Below, piece after piece: positions 25,872 through 52,959 of a stretch of 52,972 nucleotides of DNA; the stretch's first letter is position 1; every line of letters starts with the position of its first letter. The notes beneath the pieces were generated by a model. The model was not told the DNA's origin. It was given only the letters and a program-made list of their open reading frames with translations, and searched no databases. Location of the stretch: positions 1 through 52,972 of IMG/VR virus record IMGVR_UViG_3300020420_000019; one strand, 5' to 3'. The position numbers and the translations under genes were made by a program. This DNA comes from a virus.

Positions 25872-26677
25872 TGTTAGGTACTTATTTTTACCATGAAATT
25901 ATAAGAAAAACAATTATCGGTTTCGGTACATTGTTTAATGATATTCAAATCAGACATGAAGATAGGAATGGAGGAACTCTTAGTGAAACTAAAGTCCCTT
26001 TAACTTACGGTCCTAAACAAAAATTCTTAGCAAAATTACAGCAACAGGAAGAACTATCAAAAGCAGTTGCTATAACATTACCTAGAATGTCATTTGAGAT
26101 GAATGACATGTCATATGATCCTAGCAGAAAATCAAGCATTACTAGAACATTCAAAGCAACTGATACTACAGACAATACTAAAGCAAAGAAAGTATATCTT
26201 CCTGTCCCATATAACATAGGATTTGAATTAAATGTAATGACAAAATTAAATGATGATGCATTACAAATTGTAGAACAGATATTACCATTCTTCCAACCTG
26301 CATTTAACATTACAATAGACTTAGTAAGTTCTATTGGAGAGAAAAGAGATATTCCTATTGTATTGGAAAATATTAATTTTGAAGATGAGTATGAATCAGA
26401 TTTTCAAACTAGAAGAGTCTTGATGTATACTTTTAATTTTAATGCTAAAACTTATCTCTTCGGTCCTGTTGCAGATAGTACAGATGGACTAATCAAAAAA
26501 GTTCAAGTGGATTACTATTCTAATACTGAAACAGATACTGCTAAGAGAGAAATGAGATACAAAGTACAACCAGATCCTTTAACTGCAGGACCTGCAGATG
26601 ACTTTGGATTTAGTGAGAGCACTGAGATGTTTAGTGATTCTAAGATTTACAGTCCAACTAGAAGAGAGGATGTATAA
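25871..26677 (+). CDS. 15: Tail terminator / sheath stabiliser gp15
   Basis: The 268-residue sequence opens MLGTYFYHEIIRKTIIGFGT, then LFNDIQI and KVPLTYGPKQKFLAKL, and has LPRMSFEMNDMSYDPSRK. This matches the gp15 pattern (FYxxxxRR, LFxNIQI, V.ItY..KehF, LPRi...m.d..Yd). In T4, a gp15 hexamer caps the tail tube and sheath and is the surface that joins the neck. The length is close to T4 gp15 (272 residues). The gene lies between gp14 and gp16 in a chain of TAATG overlaps. Confidence 0.9.
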   Translation: MLGTYFYHEIIRKTIIGFGTLFNDIQIRHEDRNGGTLSETKVPLTYGPKQKFLAKLQQQEELSKAVAITLPRMSFEMNDMSYDPSRKSSITRTFKATDTTDNTKAKKVYLPVPYNIGFELNVMTKLNDDALQIVEQILPFFQPAFNITIDLVSSIGEKRDIPIVLENINFEDEYESDFQTRRVLMYTFNFNAKTYLFGPVADSTDGLIKKVQVDYYSNTETDTAKREMRYKVQPDPLTAGPADDFGFSESTEMFSDSKIYSPTRREDV

Positions 26678-27096
26678 TGTCTAAACCAATAGACGACGCA
26701 TTAAATACTACATCTGATGATCATGCTTATGTACAAAAGTTTAATAAGCATAAAGATGTACCTGAGAAAAAAGATCATGGTGCTGAGATAGATAAAGACT
26801 ATCAATACTCCAGAGCACAGTTATATAACTTAATAGAAAAAGGGCAAGAAACTCTGGATGGTATAATGGATGTAGCAAATGAATCTGGATCTCCTAGAGC
26901 ATTTGAAGTGGCAGGTCAGGTCTTAAAGTCAACTGCTGATATAGCAGACAAACTAATGGATCTTCAAAAAAAGGTGAAAGAAATTGACGAGACTAAAAAC
27001 AACACTACAAATCATGTTACTAATAACGCTATTTTCACTGGCAGCACTGCCGAGTTGCAGAAACTCATCAAGAAAGGATTCTTAGATACTAAATAA
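26677..27096 (+). CDS. 16: Small terminase subunit gp16
   Basis: The 139-residue protein is mainly helical. The core IDKDYQYSRAQLYNLIEKGQ, then SPRAFEVAGQVLKST and ADIADKLMDLQKKVKEID, fits T4 gp16, in which a central coiled-coil pair drives ring assembly. gp16 recognises or regulates concatemer DNA and stimulates the ATPase of gp17 during packaging. It is separated from gp17 by about 2.9 kb of accessory genes (27118-29985), whereas in T4 the two genes are adjacent and overlapping. The stop overlaps a CTAAATA motif. Confidence 0.88.
   Translation: MSKPIDDALNTTSDDHAYVQKFNKHKDVPEKKDHGAEIDKDYQYSRAQLYNLIEKGQETLDGIMDVANESGSPRAFEVAGQVLKSTADIADKLMDLQKKVKEIDETKNNTTNHVTNNAIFTGSTAELQKLIKKGFLDTK
27089..27095 (+). 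promoter_or_regulatory. Possible variant late promoter (CTAAATA) before accessory island
   Basis: CTAAATA overlaps the last codons of gp16, 22 bases before the ATG at 27118. Spacing and core resemble the copies at 16130 and 40934. It could start a separate late transcript for the island. Confidence 0.35.
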
Positions 27097-27117: not shown

Positions 27118-27546
27118 ATGTCAGAAGTAAAGAAGGAAGAGAAAGGTATCTTTGGCAAAATCAAAGATAAAGTACTTCCTGATCAGGACGAACAAGCTGC
27201 TATTATTAGTACCTTTGTGCGTCTTGGTGTTTTGGTATGGTCAGGTGGTATACTAACATTAAACTATGTTGCTATACCTGGTGTACCTCAACAAAAGATA
27301 GATCCAACTTTCATAGCTTCGGTTTTTACAGGAGTTTTAGCTAGTTTTGGCATCCAAACGGCTAGTAAGAAAGGTGATGGAACTATGAAAATGCCACCTG
27401 GCGGTGGTAGTGGACCTAATGGTAATATATCTAAAGCAGATATGGAGAGGTTGATTGACAAAGCAACTCAAGCAGCACCCGTACAGACTATTAGATTAGA
27501 ACAAGCACCATTGGTCATTAACCCCTCAACTCCAAAGAAAAGTTAA
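27118..27546 (+). CDS. Small membrane protein, two predicted TM segments (possible holin)
   Basis: This 142-residue protein has a charged N-terminus (about 25 residues, KKEEKGIFGKIKDKV). Two hydrophobic stretches follow at about residues 30-50 (FVRLGVLVWSGGILTLNYVA) and 63-80 (FIASVFTGVLASFGIQTA), with a short loop between. The C-terminal region is Gly/Pro-rich and hydrophilic. Size and topology would suit a class II-type holin, but no lysis partner (endolysin) is seen nearby, so this is only a possibility. The neighbour at 27549 is also a membrane protein. Confidence 0.65.
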   Translation: MSEVKKEEKGIFGKIKDKVLPDQDEQAAIISTFVRLGVLVWSGGILTLNYVAIPGVPQQKIDPTFIASVFTGVLASFGIQTASKKGDGTMKMPPGGGSGPNGNISKADMERLIDKATQAAPVQTIRLEQAPLVINPSTPKKS

Positions 27547-27548
27547 TC

Positions 27549-27797
27549 ATGCAAAAAGTTATTAATGGAATCGCTATTTTCTCAGGTGCAGTAGCACTTG
27601 GAATAGTCGGTCTTGGTGGATATGTATTCATCAGAAAAGATGCTATAATAGATAGTGTCAAAGGTAAAATTATGGAATCAGTTATGCCTAGCATACCTGG
27701 TGTTGGTGGATTAGGTGGTTCATTACCTGATCTTGGTGGCGGGGCTGAGAAGTCAATACCTCCTGTAGGTACAGGGTTTGGCATTCCTAGTTTGTAA
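27549..27797 (+). CDS. Small single-pass membrane protein with Gly/Pro-rich tail
   Basis: The 82-residue protein has one hydrophobic segment at about residues 5-28 (NGIAIFSGAVALGIVGLGGY) followed by basic residues (IRKD), a short helix and a Gly/Pro-rich C-terminus. It starts 2 bases after the previous stop, so the two membrane genes are probably co-translated. No family is recognised. A role in lysis or membrane modification during late infection is possible only by association. Confidence 0.6.
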   Translation: MQKVINGIAIFSGAVALGIVGLGGYVFIRKDAIIDSVKGKIMESVMPSIPGVGGLGGSLPDLGGGAEKSIPPVGTGFGIPSL

Positions 27798-27811
27798 ACT
27801 AACTTTTTATT

Positions 27812-28435
27812 ATGTTTAAATATGATGCGATTTCTCCTCCTGTCTCAGGATGGTTAGAAATTTCTTTGGATACAGAGGTAATTGATTATCTCTGGAAAGT
27901 TATCCATGCGTCAAGATTTCCTGGCTTAAATGTAAAAGGATCTCTTGCAGGTAACATTTCAAAGAGCACAGGTCTTAAAGATACAGATGACTGGTTTTTA
28001 AATAATGTGCTAAAGGATTGTGTTGAGAACTATAAAAAAGAATTTCCATTTACAATTAGAAAACCTGACACTATATCAGATCGCAATATAGCGTTAGATG
28101 GTTTCTGGGTTAATCATCAAAGGAAACATGAGTTTAATCCTGCACATGATCATTCGGGTGCATACTCGTTTGTTATATGGATGAAGATACCAACAGAATC
28201 AAAAGAACAGCACAGTCTACCTTTCTTACAAGATGTTGGACAACCATGTGCTTCTAATTTTGACTTGACTTATATTGATACAACAGGTACAATATATCCA
28301 TATCCATATTTTATGGATCCTGATAAGGAAGGTAAGATGTTATTTTTTCCTTCTACATTTAAACATTGTGTATATCCTTTTTATGTTAGCGATGAAGAAA
28401 GGATCTCAATATCTGGTAACATTTTTTATACATAA
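27812..28435 (+). CDS. Putative Fe(II)/2-oxoglutarate-dependent oxygenase (1)
   Basis: The 207-residue protein has the elements of the double-stranded beta-helix 2OG oxygenase fold. FNPAHDHSG supplies H112 and H114 (with D113), FFPSTFKHCVYPF supplies the distal H185, and DEERISISGNIFY supplies R197, which would bind the 2OG carboxylate. The 'H.H....s.viwmkiP' and 'FFPs...H.v.P' spacing is that of oxygenases common in marine T4-like phages. Whether the metal site is HxH...H or HDx...H cannot be settled from sequence. The substrate is unknown; protein or nucleotide hydroxylation are options. It lies in the accessory island between gp16 and gp17, near a second such gene. Confidence 0.7.
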   Translation: MFKYDAISPPVSGWLEISLDTEVIDYLWKVIHASRFPGLNVKGSLAGNISKSTGLKDTDDWFLNNVLKDCVENYKKEFPFTIRKPDTISDRNIALDGFWVNHQRKHEFNPAHDHSGAYSFVIWMKIPTESKEQHSLPFLQDVGQPCASNFDLTYIDTTGTIYPYPYFMDPDKEGKMLFFPSTFKHCVYPFYVSDEERISISGNIFYT

Positions 28436-28450
28436 AAGTAAAGATTGAAC

Positions 28451-28609
28451 ATGGCACTCTCAGACAAAACTCAAAAACTATTTGATAAATTTGTTGAATG
28501 GGACAAGAGACTTATTAAAAAGTTTCAAGATAAGTTTGGGTTGTCAGATTATCAAATGAAATGCATAGCGTTTGCCAAGGGGTTTATAATAGGTGCAATC
28601 CTTCTCTGA
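28451..28609 (+). CDS. Short protein with C-terminal hydrophobic segment (52 aa)
   Basis: The ATG at 28451 opens 52 codons ending at TGA 28607-28609. The protein is a Lys-rich helix (SDKTQKLFDKFVEWDKRLIK) followed by CIAFAKGFIIGAILL, a short membrane-inserting tail. It overlaps the start of the NifU-like gene by 17 bases, and the arrangement suggests coupled translation. No family is recognised. Coding status is supported by tight packing between neighbours. Confidence 0.5.
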   Translation: MALSDKTQKLFDKFVEWDKRLIKKFQDKFGLSDYQMKCIAFAKGFIIGAILL

Positions 28610-28862
28610 TAAAATTAAAGAATCCATAGATCCTATAAAACAACATATAGAAGGTGATGGTGGGAGTGTAGAATTTATTGAGTTAACAGAGGACTTAATA
28701 GTAAGACTTAAAGTATCTGGATCTACTAAACCATGTTTTGATTGTCCAGACCCTATGAAATATTGTACTCCATGTATAATGGATACAAGACACCTACAAA
28801 GTGAAATAAGAAGACATCTTACAGAATCTTTTTCGGAATTGAATGGCATTGAATACGATTGA
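28593..28862 (+). CDS. NifU C-terminal-like Fe-S cluster protein
   Basis: The 89-residue protein starts at GTG 28593. KESIDPIKQHIEGDGGSVEF is the classic opening of the NifU/Nfu C-terminal domain ('I.P.i..DGGd.e.'), followed by LIVRLKVSGSTKPCFDCP with the C48-x-x-C51 pair expected to hold a bridging [4Fe-4S] cluster. A second pair, C58-T-P-C61, is unusual for Nfu proteins. The role would be to carry or deliver an Fe-S cluster in the infected cell. Its location between two iron-dependent oxygenase genes is notable. The next gene starts within its last codons (28843). Confidence 0.75.
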   Translation: MQSFSDKIKESIDPIKQHIEGDGGSVEFIELTEDLIVRLKVSGSTKPCFDCPDPMKYCTPCIMDTRHLQSEIRRHLTESFSELNGIEYD

Positions 28863-29379
28863 CACAGTAACTGTCAAAAAAGAGTTACCAATTTTTACAG
28901 TGAAGTTACCTGAGTTAGATGTTTCTCATGTAATAGAAGAGTATAGAAATTTATATCCCGAAGATTATAACAAAGAATTACCCAATGCTCCTGTAAGATC
29001 TTCTTGGAGAAGTAACATGTGGGCAATGGACTATCCTAAATTAAAATCATTTGTTTCAATAGTTACTAAATGTTGTGAGACTGTTGGTCGTGACTATTTT
29101 CATATGAGAGAAGATACAAAATTTGAATGTAATAATTTATGGATGATGCGTTATAATAAAGGTGATTATGCAAAACCACATAATCATTTTCCAAACGATC
29201 TATCATGTGTATATTATGCTAAAGTAGATAAAGATAGTGCTCCTATAATTTTTGAAGGAGATGTAGAAATAAAACCAGTTAATAATTTATTAATAATTTT
29301 CCCGTCGTTGCTCTTACATGAAGTTCCATTAACAAACGGTCAGCGAACCGCAATATCACTGAACTTTCGAGCAAATTAA
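28843..29379 (+). CDS. Putative Fe(II)/2-oxoglutarate-dependent oxygenase (2)
   Basis: The 178-residue protein carries a clear 2OG oxygenase signature. KPHNHFPNDLSCVYYAKVD gives H113 and H115, FPSLLLHEVP gives H159, and GQRTAISLNF gives R168 for 2OG binding. The 'h.HP...lSgvyYv' and 'lHeV.P....R.aIs.N' pattern is the PF13759-like type found in many cyanophage proteins. It overlaps the NifU-like gene by 20 bases, so the two are probably made together. The first 60 residues are more variable and may hold the substrate-specific part. The substrate is unknown. Confidence 0.75.
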   Translation: MALNTIDTVTVKKELPIFTVKLPELDVSHVIEEYRNLYPEDYNKELPNAPVRSSWRSNMWAMDYPKLKSFVSIVTKCCETVGRDYFHMREDTKFECNNLWMMRYNKGDYAKPHNHFPNDLSCVYYAKVDKDSAPIIFEGDVEIKPVNNLLIIFPSLLLHEVPLTNGQRTAISLNFRAN

Positions 29380-29417
29380 CCTCATACATAATATTAATTA
29401 ATCACTATTATTAGTTT

Positions 29418-29717
29418 ATGTTATCAACAGCATATCGTCTACGGTTAGTAGAAATCTGCAAATCAATTGCAGCAGGTCAAGAGGTGAATTTGGAAGACAT
29501 GATATGGGCAGAGAAACTGTCAAAAGCAAACACATCTGCTAGAGGTATGTTAAGTTCGGCACGAAGATTAAACAGGGATGATGACTCGTCTTTTCTTAAG
29601 TACTTGGATATTGGGGACTCTGATCCAAGGTTACACAAAAGGGGTTTCAGTGGAGCAGATGATATAGCAGATTGGTTTAAAAACAAAAGGTCAGATGACT
29701 GGAGGCAAAGAGACTAA
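29418..29717 (+). CDS. Conserved marine myovirus protein of unknown function
   Basis: The 99-residue, charged, probably helical protein ends in GFSGADDIADWFKNKRSDDW. Its 'DIGDsDP..H..GF....DIADWF...DDWR.RD' C-terminus is a pattern I associate with small hypothetical proteins encoded near the terminase of marine T4-like phages. It overlaps the next gene by one base (TAATG). No catalytic or metal motif is visible. A 38-base AT-rich gap precedes it, without a clear promoter. Confidence 0.65.
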   Translation: MLSTAYRLRLVEICKSIAAGQEVNLEDMIWAEKLSKANTSARGMLSSARRLNRDDDSSFLKYLDIGDSDPRLHKRGFSGADDIADWFKNKRSDDWRQRD

Positions 29718-29881
29718 TGAATGGTAGACTAGACAAAGTTGCAATGACAAATAAACTTATGCAACTCAAAAGAGAAATACATTACAAGTGTGAGATAGGA
29801 GAAAAGAATGAAGGATATTGCAGAGGAGCAAATGATTATCTCAATAGAACTTTTGATGTATTAGATGAATATTGGCAATGA
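29717..29881 (+). CDS. Small hypothetical protein (54 aa)
   Basis: ATG at 29717 (TAATG overlap with the upstream stop) opens 54 codons ending TGA 29879-29881. The product begins MNGRLDKVAMTNKLMQLKRE and ends NRTFDVLDEYWQ. It is charged, probably helical, and has two cysteines. It is packed by one-base and four-base overlaps on both sides, which supports a real gene. Function is unknown. Confidence 0.6.
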   Translation: MNGRLDKVAMTNKLMQLKREIHYKCEIGEKNEGYCRGANDYLNRTFDVLDEYWQ

Positions 29882-29985
29882 CAGTAGTTCATAGTGTTAA
29901 TATAATGGTGTTGATACTAGTGATAGCAGTTACTATTGTCATCGCATATATAATGAAGATGGCATATGAGGAGATGAATGGCTGA
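29878..29985 (+). CDS. Very small membrane peptide upstream of terminase (35 aa)
   Basis: ATG at 29878 (ATGA overlap) opens 35 codons ending TGA 29983-29985, overlapping the large terminase start by 8 bases. Residues 7-25 (VNIMVLILVIAVTIVIAYI) are a strong transmembrane segment, followed by KMAYEEMNG. It may be a genuine micro-protein or a leader that couples terminase translation. Confidence 0.5.
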   Translation: MTVVHSVNIMVLILVIAVTIVIAYIMKMAYEEMNG

Positions 29986-31636
29986 TCAAGATGTGTATCT
30001 TGGTAATCCGAATCTAAAGAAAGCAAATACAAAGGTTGAATTTTCTACAGATCAGATTCAAGAGTTTATTAAGTGTAAACAGGATCCGATATATTTTGCA
30101 AAGAATTATATAAAGATTGTTTCTCTTGATGAAGGTCTTGTGCATTTTAAAATGTGGGATTTTCAAGAAGAACTGATTAGAAATTTCCACGAATCTAGAT
30201 TTAATATATGTAAGATGCCTAGACAGACTGGTAAGTCAACCACATGTGTTGCTTACCTGTTGCATTATATTGTTTTTAATGATAGTGTTAATGTAGGTAT
30301 TCTGGCAAACAAAGCAGCAACTGCTAGGGAATTATTAGGTAGATTACAAACTGCCTATGAAAATTTACCTAAGTGGATGCAGCAAGGTATATTGTCATGG
30401 AATAAAGGATCAATGGAGTTAGAAAATGGATCTAAAATACTGGCAGCATCTACCTCTGCATCTGCAGTTAGAGGTATGTCTTTCAACATTATTTTTCTGG
30501 ATGAGTTTGCCTTTGTTCCTAATCATATTGCTGAGGCATTCTTCAGCTCAGTATATCCTACTATCACTTCTGGTAAATCCACAAAAGTCATAATGGTTTC
30601 TACCCCATGTGGTATGAATCATTTCTATAGGTATTGGCATGATGCACAGAGGGGTAAGAATGAATACACTGCTACTGAGGTACACTGGTCAGAAGTGCCA
30701 GGTAGAGATGAGGCATGGAAAGAACAAACTATAAAGAACACATCAGAACAACAGTTTAAGGTTGAGTTTGAGTGTGAGTTCCTAGGATCTGTTGATACAT
30801 TGATTAGTGTAACTAAACTTAGAAACCTTGTATTTGAAGATCCAATAGTTAACAACCATAAGGGATTATTAGTATACGAACATCCTGTTAAAGGTAATGA
30901 TTATATTATAACTGTAGATACTGCTAGAGGAATAGACCATGACTCCTCAGCATTTATAGTATTTGATATAACGACATATCCATATAAGACTGTAGCAAGA
31001 TATAAGAATGCAGAAATAAAACCTATGCTGTTTCCAAATCTTATAATGGATGTAGCAAAAGCATATAATAATGCATATGTATTGGTAGAGATTAATGATA
31101 TAGGAGAACAGGTTGCAAGTATTATGCAATATGATTTAGAATATGAAAATCTTCTTATGTGTGCTATGAGAGGTAGAAATGGTCAACAAGTAGGATCAGG
31201 ATTCTCTGGTAGTAAAACCCAACTTGGTGTGAGAATGTCTCAGGCAGTTAAGAAATTAGGTTGCTCTAACTTGAAAACTTTGATGGAAGATGATAAAATA
31301 ATAACAAATGATTATGATATCATTGCTGAACTTACCACCTTTGTTCAGAAGAAACAGTCATGGGAAGCAGAAGATGGTTGCCATGATGACCTAGCAATGT
31401 GTCTTGTTATCTTTGCATGGTTAGTTGCACAAGACTATTTCAAAGAGATGACAGATACAGATGTTCGTAAACGCATCTATGAAGAACAGAAGAATCAGAT
31501 TGAGCAAGACATGGCTCCTTTTGGTTTTATACTGGATGGTGTAGATGACGAGGACGAGTTTGTTGATGGTAATGGTGACAGGTGGATGAAAGCAGATGAA
31601 TATGGTGATCGCTCATTCATGTGGGAGTATAAATGA
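29978..31636 (+). CDS. 17: Large terminase subunit gp17 (packaging ATPase and nuclease)
   Basis: The 552-residue protein has the N-terminal packaging ATPase: Walker A RQTGKST at residues 82-88, and Walker B FLDEFAF with D175-E176. The C-terminal RNase H-like nuclease follows, with candidate acidic residues D314 (TVDTARGIDHDSSAF), E371 (VEINDIGEQ) and D470/D471 (CHDDLAM). It binds the portal gp20 and, with gp16, cuts concatemers and pumps DNA into the prohead. The length is close to T4 gp17 (610 residues) and both domains look complete. It starts inside the preceding micro-ORF and overlaps the next gene by 4 bases. Confidence 0.95.
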   Translation: MADQDVYLGNPNLKKANTKVEFSTDQIQEFIKCKQDPIYFAKNYIKIVSLDEGLVHFKMWDFQEELIRNFHESRFNICKMPRQTGKSTTCVAYLLHYIVFNDSVNVGILANKAATARELLGRLQTAYENLPKWMQQGILSWNKGSMELENGSKILAASTSASAVRGMSFNIIFLDEFAFVPNHIAEAFFSSVYPTITSGKSTKVIMVSTPCGMNHFYRYWHDAQRGKNEYTATEVHWSEVPGRDEAWKEQTIKNTSEQQFKVEFECEFLGSVDTLISVTKLRNLVFEDPIVNNHKGLLVYEHPVKGNDYIITVDTARGIDHDSSAFIVFDITTYPYKTVARYKNAEIKPMLFPNLIMDVAKAYNNAYVLVEINDIGEQVASIMQYDLEYENLLMCAMRGRNGQQVGSGFSGSKTQLGVRMSQAVKKLGCSNLKTLMEDDKIITNDYDIIAELTTFVQKKQSWEAEDGCHDDLAMCLVIFAWLVAQDYFKEMTDTDVRKRIYEEQKNQIEQDMAPFGFILDGVDDEDEFVDGNGDRWMKADEYGDRSFMWEYK

Positions 31637-44430: not shown

Positions 44431-45485
44431 AGACAGCGATTATTACTGATCAGCATTTCGGTATGAGGAAAGGCAACCGAATATTCCATGATTATTTTAA
44501 AAAATTTTATGACACAGTATTCTTCCCGACGCTCGAAAAAGAAGGAATCAAAACGGTCATTGATATGGGAGATACTTTCGACAACCGTAGAACTATTGAT
44601 CTCTGGAGTCTCGAATGGTCGAAAAAAAATTACTTCGATCGCTTGCGAGATATGGGCATCACTGTGTATACTATCGTGGGTAATCATACTGCCTATTACA
44701 AAAACAATAACTCAATCAATTCTATTGATCTTTTACTACGAGAATATAATAATATCATCACTATCCCTGACTACGCAGAGTATACGATTGGCGACACAAA
44801 ATGTCTTTTCATAGGGTGGATGAATGAAGAGAACAGACCTAAGATAGAAAGAAAAATAAAATCATGTAAATCTAAAGTATGCTTTGGACATTTAGAATTA
44901 AATGGATATGCAGTATACAAAGGTTTTACCCAGAGTCATGGTGCTAGTGGTGATGCAGATATCTTTAATAAGTTTGAGAGAGTTTATACTGGACACTATC
45001 ATACTAGATCTACAGATGGTACAGTTTATTACCTAGGTAATCCTTATGAGATGTTCTGGAATGATTGTGATGACACTCGTGGATTTCATATCTGGGACTC
45101 AGATACATATGAAGCAACTCCTGTAAACAATCCTCATAGGATGTTTCATAAAATTTATTATAAAGATACTCCTCATCAATTGTTTGATGCCACTCCCTAT
45201 GCAGGTAAGATTCTAAAAGTCATAGTAGAGAAAAGAAGTAAACCAAAAGAGTTTGAAAAGTTCTTAGACAAACTTAACTCGGTATGTCCAGAAGATTTAA
45301 AAGTCATTGAAAGTGTAGACTGGAATCATGGTTATGTTCATGGAGAACAGTTTGATGCAGAGAATGAAGAAAATACTATCACTTTGTTAAATAGGTTTAT
45401 AGAAGAAGCAGAGGTCGATCTTGACAAAGGTAGAGTTAAAGAACTTATCGGGGGTCTATACAACAAAGCATGTGAGGTTGACTAA
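44427..45485 (+). CDS. 47: Recombination nuclease subunit gp47 (Mre11-like)
   Basis: The 352-residue metallophosphoesterase has TDQHFG (D8, H10), DMGDTFDNR (D49), VGNHTAYY (N86, H87), FGHLELNG and YTGHYHTRS, the complete set of calcineurin-like metal ligands. With gp46 it forms the phage Mre11/Rad50 complex, which resects ends to start recombination-dependent replication and helps degrade host DNA. The size matches T4 gp47 (339 residues). A DUF3110-like gene lies between it and gp46, as in other cyanophages. Confidence 0.95.
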   Translation: MKTAIITDQHFGMRKGNRIFHDYFKKFYDTVFFPTLEKEGIKTVIDMGDTFDNRRTIDLWSLEWSKKNYFDRLRDMGITVYTIVGNHTAYYKNNNSINSIDLLLREYNNIITIPDYAEYTIGDTKCLFIGWMNEENRPKIERKIKSCKSKVCFGHLELNGYAVYKGFTQSHGASGDADIFNKFERVYTGHYHTRSTDGTVYYLGNPYEMFWNDCDDTRGFHIWDSDTYEATPVNNPHRMFHKIYYKDTPHQLFDATPYAGKILKVIVEKRSKPKEFEKFLDKLNSVCPEDLKVIESVDWNHGYVHGEQFDAENEENTITLLNRFIEEAEVDLDKGRVKELIGGLYNKACEVD

Positions 45486-45760
45486 TGTGGTTACTCACTG
45501 AAGAGGGTCGTCGTGAGGGTGCTTACGCAGTGAAAGATGCTGCAGGTGAGAAGGTCTTGTATATGTTTGAAGAGGAAGATGATGCAATTAGATATGCAGA
45601 GATGATGGAGGATGACAGGTCTAAAGACATGGATATTATAGAAGTTGACGAAGAGGTTGCAATAAAAGCGTGTGAGGTGTATAATTATAAGTATAGTATT
45701 ATCACAAAAAACGACTTCGTAATACCTCCAAAAAAGGATGATTCGGTTCAAAAAAATTAA
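45485..45760 (+). CDS. DUF3110-like protein between gp47 and gp46
   Basis: The 91-residue acidic protein has VLYMFEEEDDAIRYAEMMED followed by IIEVDEEVAIKACEVYNY, the layout of DUF3110 ('vlLFE.edDA.ryA..Le...f....v..id.eei...c...gy'), a family found mainly in cyanobacteria. That supports a cyanobacterial host. It overlaps gp47 by one base (TAATG) and gp46 by 23 bases, so it is tightly bound to the nuclease pair and may modulate it. No function is established to my knowledge. Confidence 0.7.
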   Translation: MWLLTEEGRREGAYAVKDAAGEKVLYMFEEEDDAIRYAEMMEDDRSKDMDIIEVDEEVAIKACEVYNYKYSIITKNDFVIPPKKDDSVQKN

Positions 45761-50494: not shown

Positions 50495-51413
50495 GAAGTA
50501 TCGACCTAAAACTATTGAACATTGTATTCTCCCTGAGAGTATCAAACAAACATTCAAAGACTTTTTAAAAGAGGGAGAGATTCCCAACCTTCTCTTAACA
50601 GGTCCTGCAGGTGTTGGTAAAACTACAGTTGCAAAAGCATTGTGTGAACAATTAGGTTGTGATTATATTTTAATCAATGGGTCTGATGAAGGTAGATTTC
50701 TTGACACAGTAAGAGGACAGGCAAAGAATTTTGCTTCTACTATGTCATTACTACCAACAACAAAACATAAAGTAATTATTATTGACGAGGCAGATAATAC
50801 AACACATGATGTACAGTTATTATTGAGAAGTAATATAGAAGCATTCCATAAGAACTGTAGATTTATTTTTACATGTAACTATAAGAACAAAATTATTGAA
50901 CCATTACATTCAAGATGTTCTGTAGTTGAGTTCTCAATCAAAGGTAAACAGAAAGCAGAGATTCAAGTAGCATTCTTCCAGAGAGTTGTAGGAATACTTA
51001 CAGCAGAGAATATTGACTTTGATAAGAAAGTTCTCTTACAATTAATCAACAAACATTTTCCAGATTGGAGAAGAGTATTAAATGAGTTGCAAAGATATTC
51101 TGTTTCTGGTAAAATAGATACTGCGATACTAGCAGAATTTACTGATGCAAGAGTTGATGATCTGATTAGAACTCTTAAAGCAAAAGACTTTCCTGCAGTT
51201 AGAAAATGGGTGGTGTCGAACTTGGACAATGACCCATCTGTTTTATTGCGTAAAGTCTATGATGCTATGTACAGTAACTTAGATGGTCCTAGTATCGCTG
51301 CTGCGGTATTGATTATCGCAAAGTATCAATACCAGATAGCATTTGTTGCTGACCAAGAGATCAATCTCTTAGCAGCACTAACAGAAATAATGGTGGAGTG
51401 TGAATTCAAATGA
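50469..51413 (+). CDS. 44: Clamp loader large subunit gp44
   Basis: The 314-residue AAA+ protein has LWVEKYRPKTIEHCIL at the start, Walker A GPAGVGKTT (residues 45-53), Walker B IIIDEAD (D106-E107), FTCNYKNKI (sensor 1) and the arginine-finger SRC motif (S148-R149-C150). Four gp44 and one gp62 open gp45 and load it at primer ends. The length equals T4 gp44 (319 residues). In T4 and most cyanophages gp62 follows directly; here an HNH endonuclease gene follows instead, joined by an ATGA overlap. Confidence 0.96.
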   Translation: MKSDFLWVEKYRPKTIEHCILPESIKQTFKDFLKEGEIPNLLLTGPAGVGKTTVAKALCEQLGCDYILINGSDEGRFLDTVRGQAKNFASTMSLLPTTKHKVIIIDEADNTTHDVQLLLRSNIEAFHKNCRFIFTCNYKNKIIEPLHSRCSVVEFSIKGKQKAEIQVAFFQRVVGILTAENIDFDKKVLLQLINKHFPDWRRVLNELQRYSVSGKIDTAILAEFTDARVDDLIRTLKAKDFPAVRKWVVSNLDNDPSVLLRKVYDAMYSNLDGPSIAAAVLIIAKYQYQIAFVADQEINLLAALTEIMVECEFK

Positions 51414-52120
51414 TTGATTTATGGGGAAACAAAGTAAGTGAATCTTTGTGGGTTATAGAAGGTGAATATTGTAAGAGAGGAATAGGAAACAGCTTCTTTC
51501 ATGCAACGATTGTTGAGGAAGGTCATCCAGATGCAGTAGAATATAAACCTTTAATGAAATTTGGTGTGAAGTGGCCAGACTATTATGTTTGTGCTGAAGG
51601 TAAATATTTAAGTATGAAGTTTGGTAGAACTACACAATTTCCTAGAATATCAGATTACACTAAAAAACAATACCCTAGTAAAGGAGCCCCAGATTATCTG
51701 CATGCTCTTAAATTTAGTATGTCGCAACCACATGCTGTTGCAGAACAACTTATGCCAGGATATAAATTTACATCCCAATCAAATAGTCAGCAAGGTAAGT
51801 TAAAGAAAAATGTTAATATAGGTGTATCATATCATAGAGGAGTAAAGGAAACTTTTCATCCATTAGATGATGGATACTATAGTGAACTAGGTATACCTAA
51901 AGAAGAATGGGAAGCAGCACCAACAATGGCAAAGTTAATTAAAGAGATGGTATTTGTAGATCATATAGATACATGCACCAACAACAACAATATAACTAAT
52001 CTTAGATATACTACTCCAAGAGGCAATAATCCTTATGTCAAATACCATCAGGGTATTACTGATGTAAAACCCAAGATACCATATGAAGATGGTAAAAAAT
52101 ACAAGAGGTTAGATTCATGA
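51410..52120 (+). CDS. HNH endonuclease, probable homing type
   Basis: The 236-residue protein has a C-terminal HNH-type signature FVDHIDTCTNNNNITNLRY (D184-H185, then Asn/Leu pattern), followed by TPRGNNPYV, as in H-N-H homing nucleases ('vdHidg...nN.i.NLr....'). The segment WPDYYVCAEGKYLSMKFGR near residues 50-70 resembles a NUMOD4-like DNA-binding motif. The C-terminus is basic. It is joined to gp44 and to the Dam gene by ATGA overlaps. It is best read as a free-standing mobile endonuclease inserted between gp44 and the rest of the replication block. Confidence 0.75.
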   Translation: MIDLWGNKVSESLWVIEGEYCKRGIGNSFFHATIVEEGHPDAVEYKPLMKFGVKWPDYYVCAEGKYLSMKFGRTTQFPRISDYTKKQYPSKGAPDYLHALKFSMSQPHAVAEQLMPGYKFTSQSNSQQGKLKKNVNIGVSYHRGVKETFHPLDDGYYSELGIPKEEWEAAPTMAKLIKEMVFVDHIDTCTNNNNITNLRYTTPRGNNPYVKYHQGITDVKPKIPYEDGKKYKRLDS

Positions 52121-52959
52121 AAGCATTAAAAACACCACTAAGATATCCTGGCGGTAAGTCTCGTGCCTGTACAAAACTAGCAACAGTTTTTCCAGACCTA
52201 AGTAAATTCAAAGAATATAGAGAACCATTTCTAGGAGGTGGTTCTGTTGCACTATATGTCACTAAGATGTATCCTCATCTCAATGTATGGGTAAATGATT
52301 TATATGTACCTTTAATTAATTTCTGGAAAGAATTACAGCATGATGGTCAAGGATTACAGGACTTACTCTGGTCAACAAAAAACCTGTATCCAGATAGAGA
52401 TACTGCTAAAGAATTATTCATTCAATCAAAGGAAGATTTAAACGATGAAAAATTGTCGAATCAAAAAAGAGCAGCTGCTTTCTATATTGTTAATAAGTGT
52501 TCTTTCTCTGGTCTTACTGAAGCATCGTCCTTCTCTCCTCAAGCATCAGAATCTAATTTCTCCTACAGAGGAATTGAAAAACTAGCAGCATATGGTAAGT
52601 TGATAGAGAACTGGCATATTACAGGTGCTGATTGGTCAGATTTATTATCAGACAATAAAGATACTTTTGTATATCTAGATCCTCCTTATGAGATCAAAGA
52701 TAACTTATATGGTGGTAAGAAAGGAGATCTACATAAAAGATTCAGTCATGATTATTTTGCTACCATGTGTGACAAATATACAGCAACACAATTAATATCA
52801 TACAACAGTAGTCAACTAATTAAAGATAGATTTAATAACTGGTATTCCACAGAATTTGATCATACATATACTATGAGATCTGTTGGTGAGTATATGAAAG
52901 AACAACAGGGTCGAAAAGAACTTTTAGTTTTTAATTATGAAAATACTAGGTCTTCATAG
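52117..52959 (+). CDS. dam: Dam-type DNA adenine methyltransferase (D12 class)
   Basis: The 280-residue protein has TPLRYPGGKSRACTKL at the N-terminus, the SAM-binding loop EPFLGGGSVAL (residues 36-46), and catalytic DPPY (D188-Y191) within FVYLDPPYEI. The order (FxGxG before DPPY) and size match the D12/Dam family (T4 Dam is 259 residues), which makes N6-methyladenine, usually in GATC. GATC is common across the window, so target sites are not being avoided. It is joined to the HNH gene by ATGA and ends 13 bases from the right edge; T4 gp62 would be expected to the right. Confidence 0.9.
   Translation: MKALKTPLRYPGGKSRACTKLATVFPDLSKFKEYREPFLGGGSVALYVTKMYPHLNVWVNDLYVPLINFWKELQHDGQGLQDLLWSTKNLYPDRDTAKELFIQSKEDLNDEKLSNQKRAAAFYIVNKCSFSGLTEASSFSPQASESNFSYRGIEKLAAYGKLIENWHITGADWSDLLSDNKDTFVYLDPPYEIKDNLYGGKKGDLHKRFSHDYFATMCDKYTATQLISYNSSQLIKDRFNNWYSTEFDHTYTMRSVGEYMKEQQGRKELLVFNYENTRSS

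Follow-up and report, generated by a model that had tools for sequence, protein, structure and literature searches.

In cyanomyoviruses the stretch from g15 to g18 is hypervariable and holds 4–14 inserted genes (PMC2984593, citing Millard 2009), and the interval between gp16 (small terminase) and gp17 (large terminase) has been named an insertion hotspot of cyanophages (PMC3037559). Genes for 2-oxoglutarate (2OG)-Fe(II) oxygenases are carried by 14 of 16 cyanophage genomes, and a hypothesis that involves 2OG and NtcA has been put forward for their role (PMC3037559). Viral nifU genes have also been reported as a gene class; the available text of the two papers describes neither the gene arrangement nor the protein insert reported here (PMC7785012; PMC8940887). 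In cyanobacteria, NfuA transfers [4Fe-4S] clusters to PsaC and appears to be essential; its deletion did not fully segregate (PMC7058544), and bacterial Nfu carriers are known to matter most under oxidative stress (PMC8593673). The insertion hotspot, phage 2OG oxygenases and phage nifU genes are therefore already known. Here we analyse a locus of the linear IMG/VR record IMGVR_UViG_3300020420_000019 (52,972 bases, GC 36%; hereafter the window, meaning this whole stretch), a fragment of a T4-like cyanophage (Kyanoviridae) in which an island between gp16 and gp17 encodes an Nfu-like protein together with two oxygenases, OxyA and OxyB.

The island contains, in this order, the genes for a DUF6450 protein, a phrog_568 protein, OxyA, a 52-aa open reading frame (ORF52), the Nfu-like protein, OxyB, a phrog_507 protein, a phrog_566 protein and a 35-aa ORF (Table 1). 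Judged from its sequence, the Nfu-like protein belongs to the phage Nfus as a divergent member, and its four-cysteine variant form is the new part. The explanation we favour, to which we give about an even chance, is that the island is a late accessory cassette in which an Nfu-type carrier serving [4Fe-4S] proteins of the host is combined with oxygenases that would be functionally separate from it.

A phage Nfu with a second CxxC motif

Nfu domains contain a single conserved CxxC motif, and the iron-sulfur (Fe-S) cluster is ligated at the interface of a dimer. The Nfu-like protein of the window scores 38.9 bits against PF01106 (cut-off 27), and its AlphaFold2 model (predicted template modelling score 0.68; mean predicted local distance difference test score, pLDDT, 78) retrieves Nfu structures as the four top Foldseek matches in the PDB, the best being Arabidopsis CnfU (2z51, E 1.3e-4). 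Alignment with canonical phage Nfu by hhalign (E 4.9e-15) places C58 and C61 on the canonical CxxC and uncovers a 13-residue insert immediately ahead of it. The variant thus keeps a CxxC at the canonical position and precedes it with an inserted second one, producing the motif C48-x2-C51-x6-C58-x2-C61. These four cysteines are invariant in five distinct aligned Nfu-like proteins, all of which match phrog_29737, and the motif is present in each of the 13 related IMG/VR loci found. Their conserved context is PCxDCPDPMxYCxPC, as opposed to the canonical GACxxC, and the DGG motif is retained.

The insert is absent from all 80 cyanobacterial host Nfu proteins compared and from all of the roughly 84 canonical Nfu sequences of phages. 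Among 292 sampled cyanobacterial genomes no insert-bearing relative was found, the two marginal hits being a NifU and an Nfu of the ordinary kind, and a scan of genome contigs with short exact peptide patterns, which distant relatives could escape, detected no cellular relative with the insert. A cellular source of the variant was considered and appeared in neither of these data sets. In deposited phage isolates, no variant-type Nfu was matched by tblastn at 1e-5, and at E values up to 10 only the canonical copies of P-TIM68 and AG-345-E15 stand out.

The phage variant resembles cyanobacterial NfuA/Nfu, a stand-alone domain of about 80 aa, in its predicted fold, its small stand-alone domain, its DGG and its canonically placed CxxC, whereas the 80 host proteins lack both the 13-aa insert and the second CxxC. 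It is approximately 27% identical to the canonical phage Nfu of phrog_29737, which has one CxxC only. Both phage forms, exemplified for the canonical one by gp100 of P-TIM68, are encoded in the g15-g18 region; however, canonical phage Nfu genes are mostly located between gp17 and gp18 and mostly have no PF13759 match in their record, unlike the variant.

Conservation of the cassette and separability of its genes

The first-pass annotation had described the three central genes as an oxygenase, a NifU-type protein and another oxygenase, the last two overlapping by 20 bases. The matches to PF13759, PF01106 and PF13759 bear this out, down to the 20 nt shared by the last two genes (28843-28862). 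ORF52, which that annotation missed, sits between OxyA and the Nfu-like gene, overlaps the start of the latter by 17 nt and ends in the hydrophobic stretch FAKGFIIGAILL. The order OxyA-(ORF52)-Nfu-OxyB is kept in 13 IMG/VR loci wherever the contig covers it, ORF52 being missing in L009-L011 and L015-L017. Across diverged lineages Nfu is 80–94% and OxyB 71–92% identical, and the ratio of nonsynonymous to synonymous substitution rates (dN/dS) is roughly 0.1–0.27 in all four genes of the OxyA, ORF52, Nfu and OxyB cassette, indicating purifying selection. Given this selection and the recurrence of the order in IMG/VR contigs, the arrangement is not a product of chance.

Two loci, L107 and L108, encode OxyA-ORF52-OxyB without Nfu, and no Nfu was found elsewhere in their records, both of which are fragments. 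In a tree of gp15, gp16 and gp17, L107 is nested in the Nfu-bearing clade with a bootstrap of 100, while L013 and L014 fall outside. Because of this nesting, Nfu was most likely lost in the L107 lineage; that L107 represents the ancestral state preceding the gain of Nfu is less likely in view of the same strongly supported position, and two independent gains are formally still an alternative to loss. Since OxyA and OxyB are kept in L107 and L108 without Nfu, the oxygenases do not require it. Likewise, 46 of 50 contigs with a canonical phage Nfu show no PF13759 match, a limited test in which many of the contigs are short fragments. The co-occurrence of NifU-like and oxygenase genes in other phages, by which the first-pass annotation proposed to judge its interpretation, therefore holds in part: Nfu and both oxygenases recur in conserved order across diverged lineages of one clade, but they are separable in L107 and L108, and canonical Nfu genes mostly occur apart from PF13759.

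The oxygenases

OxyA and OxyB score 40.4 and 42.5 bits, respectively, against PF13759 (cut-off 27). The iron of 2OG-Fe(II) oxygenases is a mononuclear Fe(II) held by protein side chains and not a cluster, and there is hence no evident reason to expect that a cluster carrier supplies these enzymes. Their textbook metal motif is HxD/E...H. Both OxyA and OxyB show conservation of an HxH, a distal H and an R, and in OxyB residues H113, H115, H159 and R168 are invariant. HxH in place of the textbook HxD/E is found at the proposed metal site of OxyA, OxyB and PSSM2_184 of P-SSM2, and could be typical of PF13759 enzymes. The cyanophage oxygenase PSSM2_184 is 45% identical to OxyA, and both island enzymes match phrog_81; its gene occupies a different genomic position, between DNA polymerase and uvsX. 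Sequence searches with OxyA and OxyB against the PDB returned no meaningful match, and the OxyB model, built with five close sequences, was unusable for a fold search (mean pLDDT 37).

OxyA is a mosaic element of the cassette, with 57–72% identity between loci where the flanking genes mostly show 94–98%. In particular, its identity to the OxyA proteins of L009, L011 and L015-L017 is no more than about 70%, although gp15, gp16 and gp17 of these contigs are 94–97% identical to those of the window. This pattern suggests replacement of the OxyA allele by recombination.

A late-promoter-like box ahead of the island

Late promoters of the T4 type consist of a TATAAATA/CTAAATA-like box shortly upstream of late genes that is recognised by gp55. 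CTAAATA itself is the proposed late promoter of phage Aeh1 (PMC1524935). The CTAAATA box that had been noticed ahead of the island is indeed there (Table 1), and of 16 loci compared, 15 have it ahead of DUF6450, among them L013, where it lies about 700 bp from the gp16 match. Part of this conservation is coding, because the box and the gp16 stop codon overlap in most loci. The window contains four copies of CTAAATA, all on the plus strand, where about 15 are expected from shuffled sequences, and three of the four lie 29–35 nt upstream of a gene start. This depletion and the absence from the minus strand are as expected if the box is functional, and late expression of the cassette from it is plausible.

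The gp16-gp17 site and Nfu genes of other phages

The distance between gp16 and gp17 in the window is 2,881 bp, in agreement with the approximately 2.9 kb, and the island coordinates, of the first-pass annotation. An island at this site is not striking, because both gp16-gp17 and g15-g18 are published hotspots (PMC3037559; PMC2984593). In 37 relatives that have gp16 as well as gp17, the two genes are 21 to 4,620 bp apart (median 1,837 bp), values that are approximate because several gp16 ends are ends of local alignments, and in 10 of the 37 the gap is at least as long as in the window. In P-RSM6 the site contains plastocyanin and two bilin reductases. The island, with variable accessory genes between gp16 and gp17 of a T4-like cyanophage, is like the g15-g18 hyperplastic region in location and type of insertion, differing in gene content only, and is most likely an accessory cassette in the known hotspot.

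A scan of IMG/VR for canonical Nfu gave at least 520 stretches that encode a relative. In 64 of 78 new loci examined, the gene adjoins gp17 and/or gp18, and in 11 of the 78 DUF6450 lies near it instead. ORF52 is located upstream of canonical Nfu in L260, L261, L263, L269 and L270, the last two of which have no DUF6450 match within the stretch examined. The window island resembles such a DUF6450-ORF52-Nfu cassette with oxygenases added and placed in the gp16-gp17 site, an evolutionary order that we infer. Gp100 of P-TIM68 (L019 6986-7267), annotated as hypothetical and encoded between gp17 and endonuclease VII, is a canonical Nfu. P-TIM68 is an isolate known for photosystem I genes.

Proposed function and competing explanations

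The favoured explanation builds on the order of the genes and their homologies, on the fold predicted for the Nfu-like protein and its invariant cysteines, and on the signal of purifying selection and the promoter-like box. The cassette would probably be transcribed late from the CTAAATA box, with OxyB probably coupled translationally to the Nfu gene through their overlap. The Nfu-like protein would bind an Fe-S cluster via C58/C61 plus the clade-specific C48/C51 and deliver clusters to host [4Fe-4S] proteins, e.g., PsaC of photosystem I, during infection; the variant clade would thus have altered the metal loop of a phage Nfu that supports such proteins. OxyA and OxyB would belong to the same transcription unit as accessory enzymes with functions of their own, as indicated by L107 and L108, which most likely lost Nfu and kept both oxygenases. 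Several points weigh against this explanation. The PF01106 match reaches only positions 1-41 of the 67 of the profile, and the insert breaks the usual GxC start of the cysteine motif. Confidence in the model is low in the cysteine loop (pLDDT <50 for residues 48-50 and 56-61), so that a metal site is not predicted. No photosystem gene was recognised in the scanned part of the window, and the clients of phage Nfu proteins are so far only putative. Finally, Nfu overlaps OxyB in all Nfu-bearing loci covering the junction, and since this tight coupling is conserved a functional Nfu-OxyB pair is conceivable.

A competing idea takes up the iron or Fe-S module of the first-pass annotation: the Nfu-like protein and the oxygenases would cooperate in iron/Fe-S handling, and in a host short of iron the Nfu-like protein would load the iron of OxyB or protect it. 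The order and overlap kept in lineages with the divergence given above, and the start of OxyB within the Nfu gene, fit this idea. Nevertheless, we consider it unlikely: OxyA and OxyB occur without Nfu in L107 and L108, PF13759 is missing from nearly all canonical-Nfu contigs tested, PF13759 enzymes are present in many cyanophages without a matching Nfu variant, and the iron of this family is mononuclear and protein-bound. In view of this separability and type of iron, an obligate module is not supported. A version in which one subunit would by itself hold an entire cluster, or a lone iron, in its four-cysteine loop rather than across a dimer, with the coupled OxyB as the partner of a phage-specific iron-delivery pair, is highly improbable in our judgement. 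Alternatively, the four-cysteine loop could be a zinc site and the protein a repurposed Nfu fold, acting as a small regulator or adaptor and no longer as a cluster carrier. Four closely spaced cysteines in one chain can bind Zn, their sequence context is strongly unlike the canonical one, and the loop lacks confident modelling; however, the retained DGG and canonical-position CxxC align with those of ordinary Nfus, and the gene fills the DUF6450-ORF52-Nfu context where other phages have a canonical Nfu, which leaves this alternative possible but doubtful. That the island is a random set of hotspot genes without fixed role, transiently kept, would agree with the high variability of the hotspot (gaps of 21–4,620 bp in the 37 relatives) and with the mosaic OxyA, but it is very unlikely, being largely excluded by the conserved order and by dN/dS values that are far lower than 1 for each of the four genes.

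Other genes of the island and the window

Table 1. Features of the gp16-gp17 island of the window and its boundaries.
Feature	Coordinates	Strand	Evidence or remark
gp16, small terminase, left island boundary	26677..27096	+	phrog_445 E 1.8e-48
CTAAATA late-promoter-like box	27089-27095	+	29 nt upstream of DUF6450 start; overlaps gp16 stop codon
DUF6450 protein, 142 aa	27118..27546	+	PF20048 E 1.5e-34; phrog_2714 E 7.8e-57
phrog_568 protein ("plasmid stability" in annotations)	27549..27797	+	E 2.7e-20
OxyA, PF13759 2OG-Fe(II)-type oxygenase, 207 aa	27812..28435	+	PF13759 E 4e-10; phrog_81 E 7e-31
ORF52, 52 aa, hydrophobic C-terminus	28451..28609	+	conserved in L012-L014 and L107
Nfu/NifU-C-like protein, 89 aa, GTG start	28593..28862	+	PF01106 E 1e-9
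OxyB, PF13759 oxygenase, 178 aa	28843..29379	+	PF13759 E 9e-11; phrog_81 E 3.9e-29
phrog_507 protein	29418..29717	+	E 5.5e-42; homolog of P-RSM6 CPXG_00108
phrog_566 protein	29717..29881	+	E 4.2e-17
35-aa hydrophobic ORF, overlapping gp17 start	29878..29985	+	88-97% identity in P-RSM6 and IMG/VR relatives
gp17, large terminase, right island boundary	29978..31636	+	PF03237 E 2.1e-23

The gp17 protein of the window is 78% identical to those of Synechococcus phages Sf-CH5 and Sf-CH8, and the best alignment of the capsid region is with Prochlorococcus phage P-SSM2. The phrog_568 protein is also paired with DUF6450 in P-HM1. A cytidylyltransferase-like gene (PF01467; 31633-32055) overlaps the end of gp17, and in L032 a canonical Nfu gene comes next after its homolog, ahead of endonuclease VII. 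Elsewhere in the window, a DUF3110 protein of 91 aa (45485-45760; PF11360 E 4.7e-13) is encoded between metallophosphoesterase-like and SMC-like ATPase genes, and at the right end (51410-52959) a gene that weakly matches HNH endonucleases precedes one for a D12-class adenine DNA methyltransferase.

Implications

Nfu carriers appear to be common accessory genes of marine T4-like phages, located in or near the terminase-sheath region, and gp100 of P-TIM68 offers a ready system for testing the function of a phage Nfu. The altered metal loop described here represents a natural variant with which to test cluster binding and transfer by Nfu proteins. It also raises the question of whether phages must keep host Fe-S proteins, such as those of photosystem I, supplied during infection.

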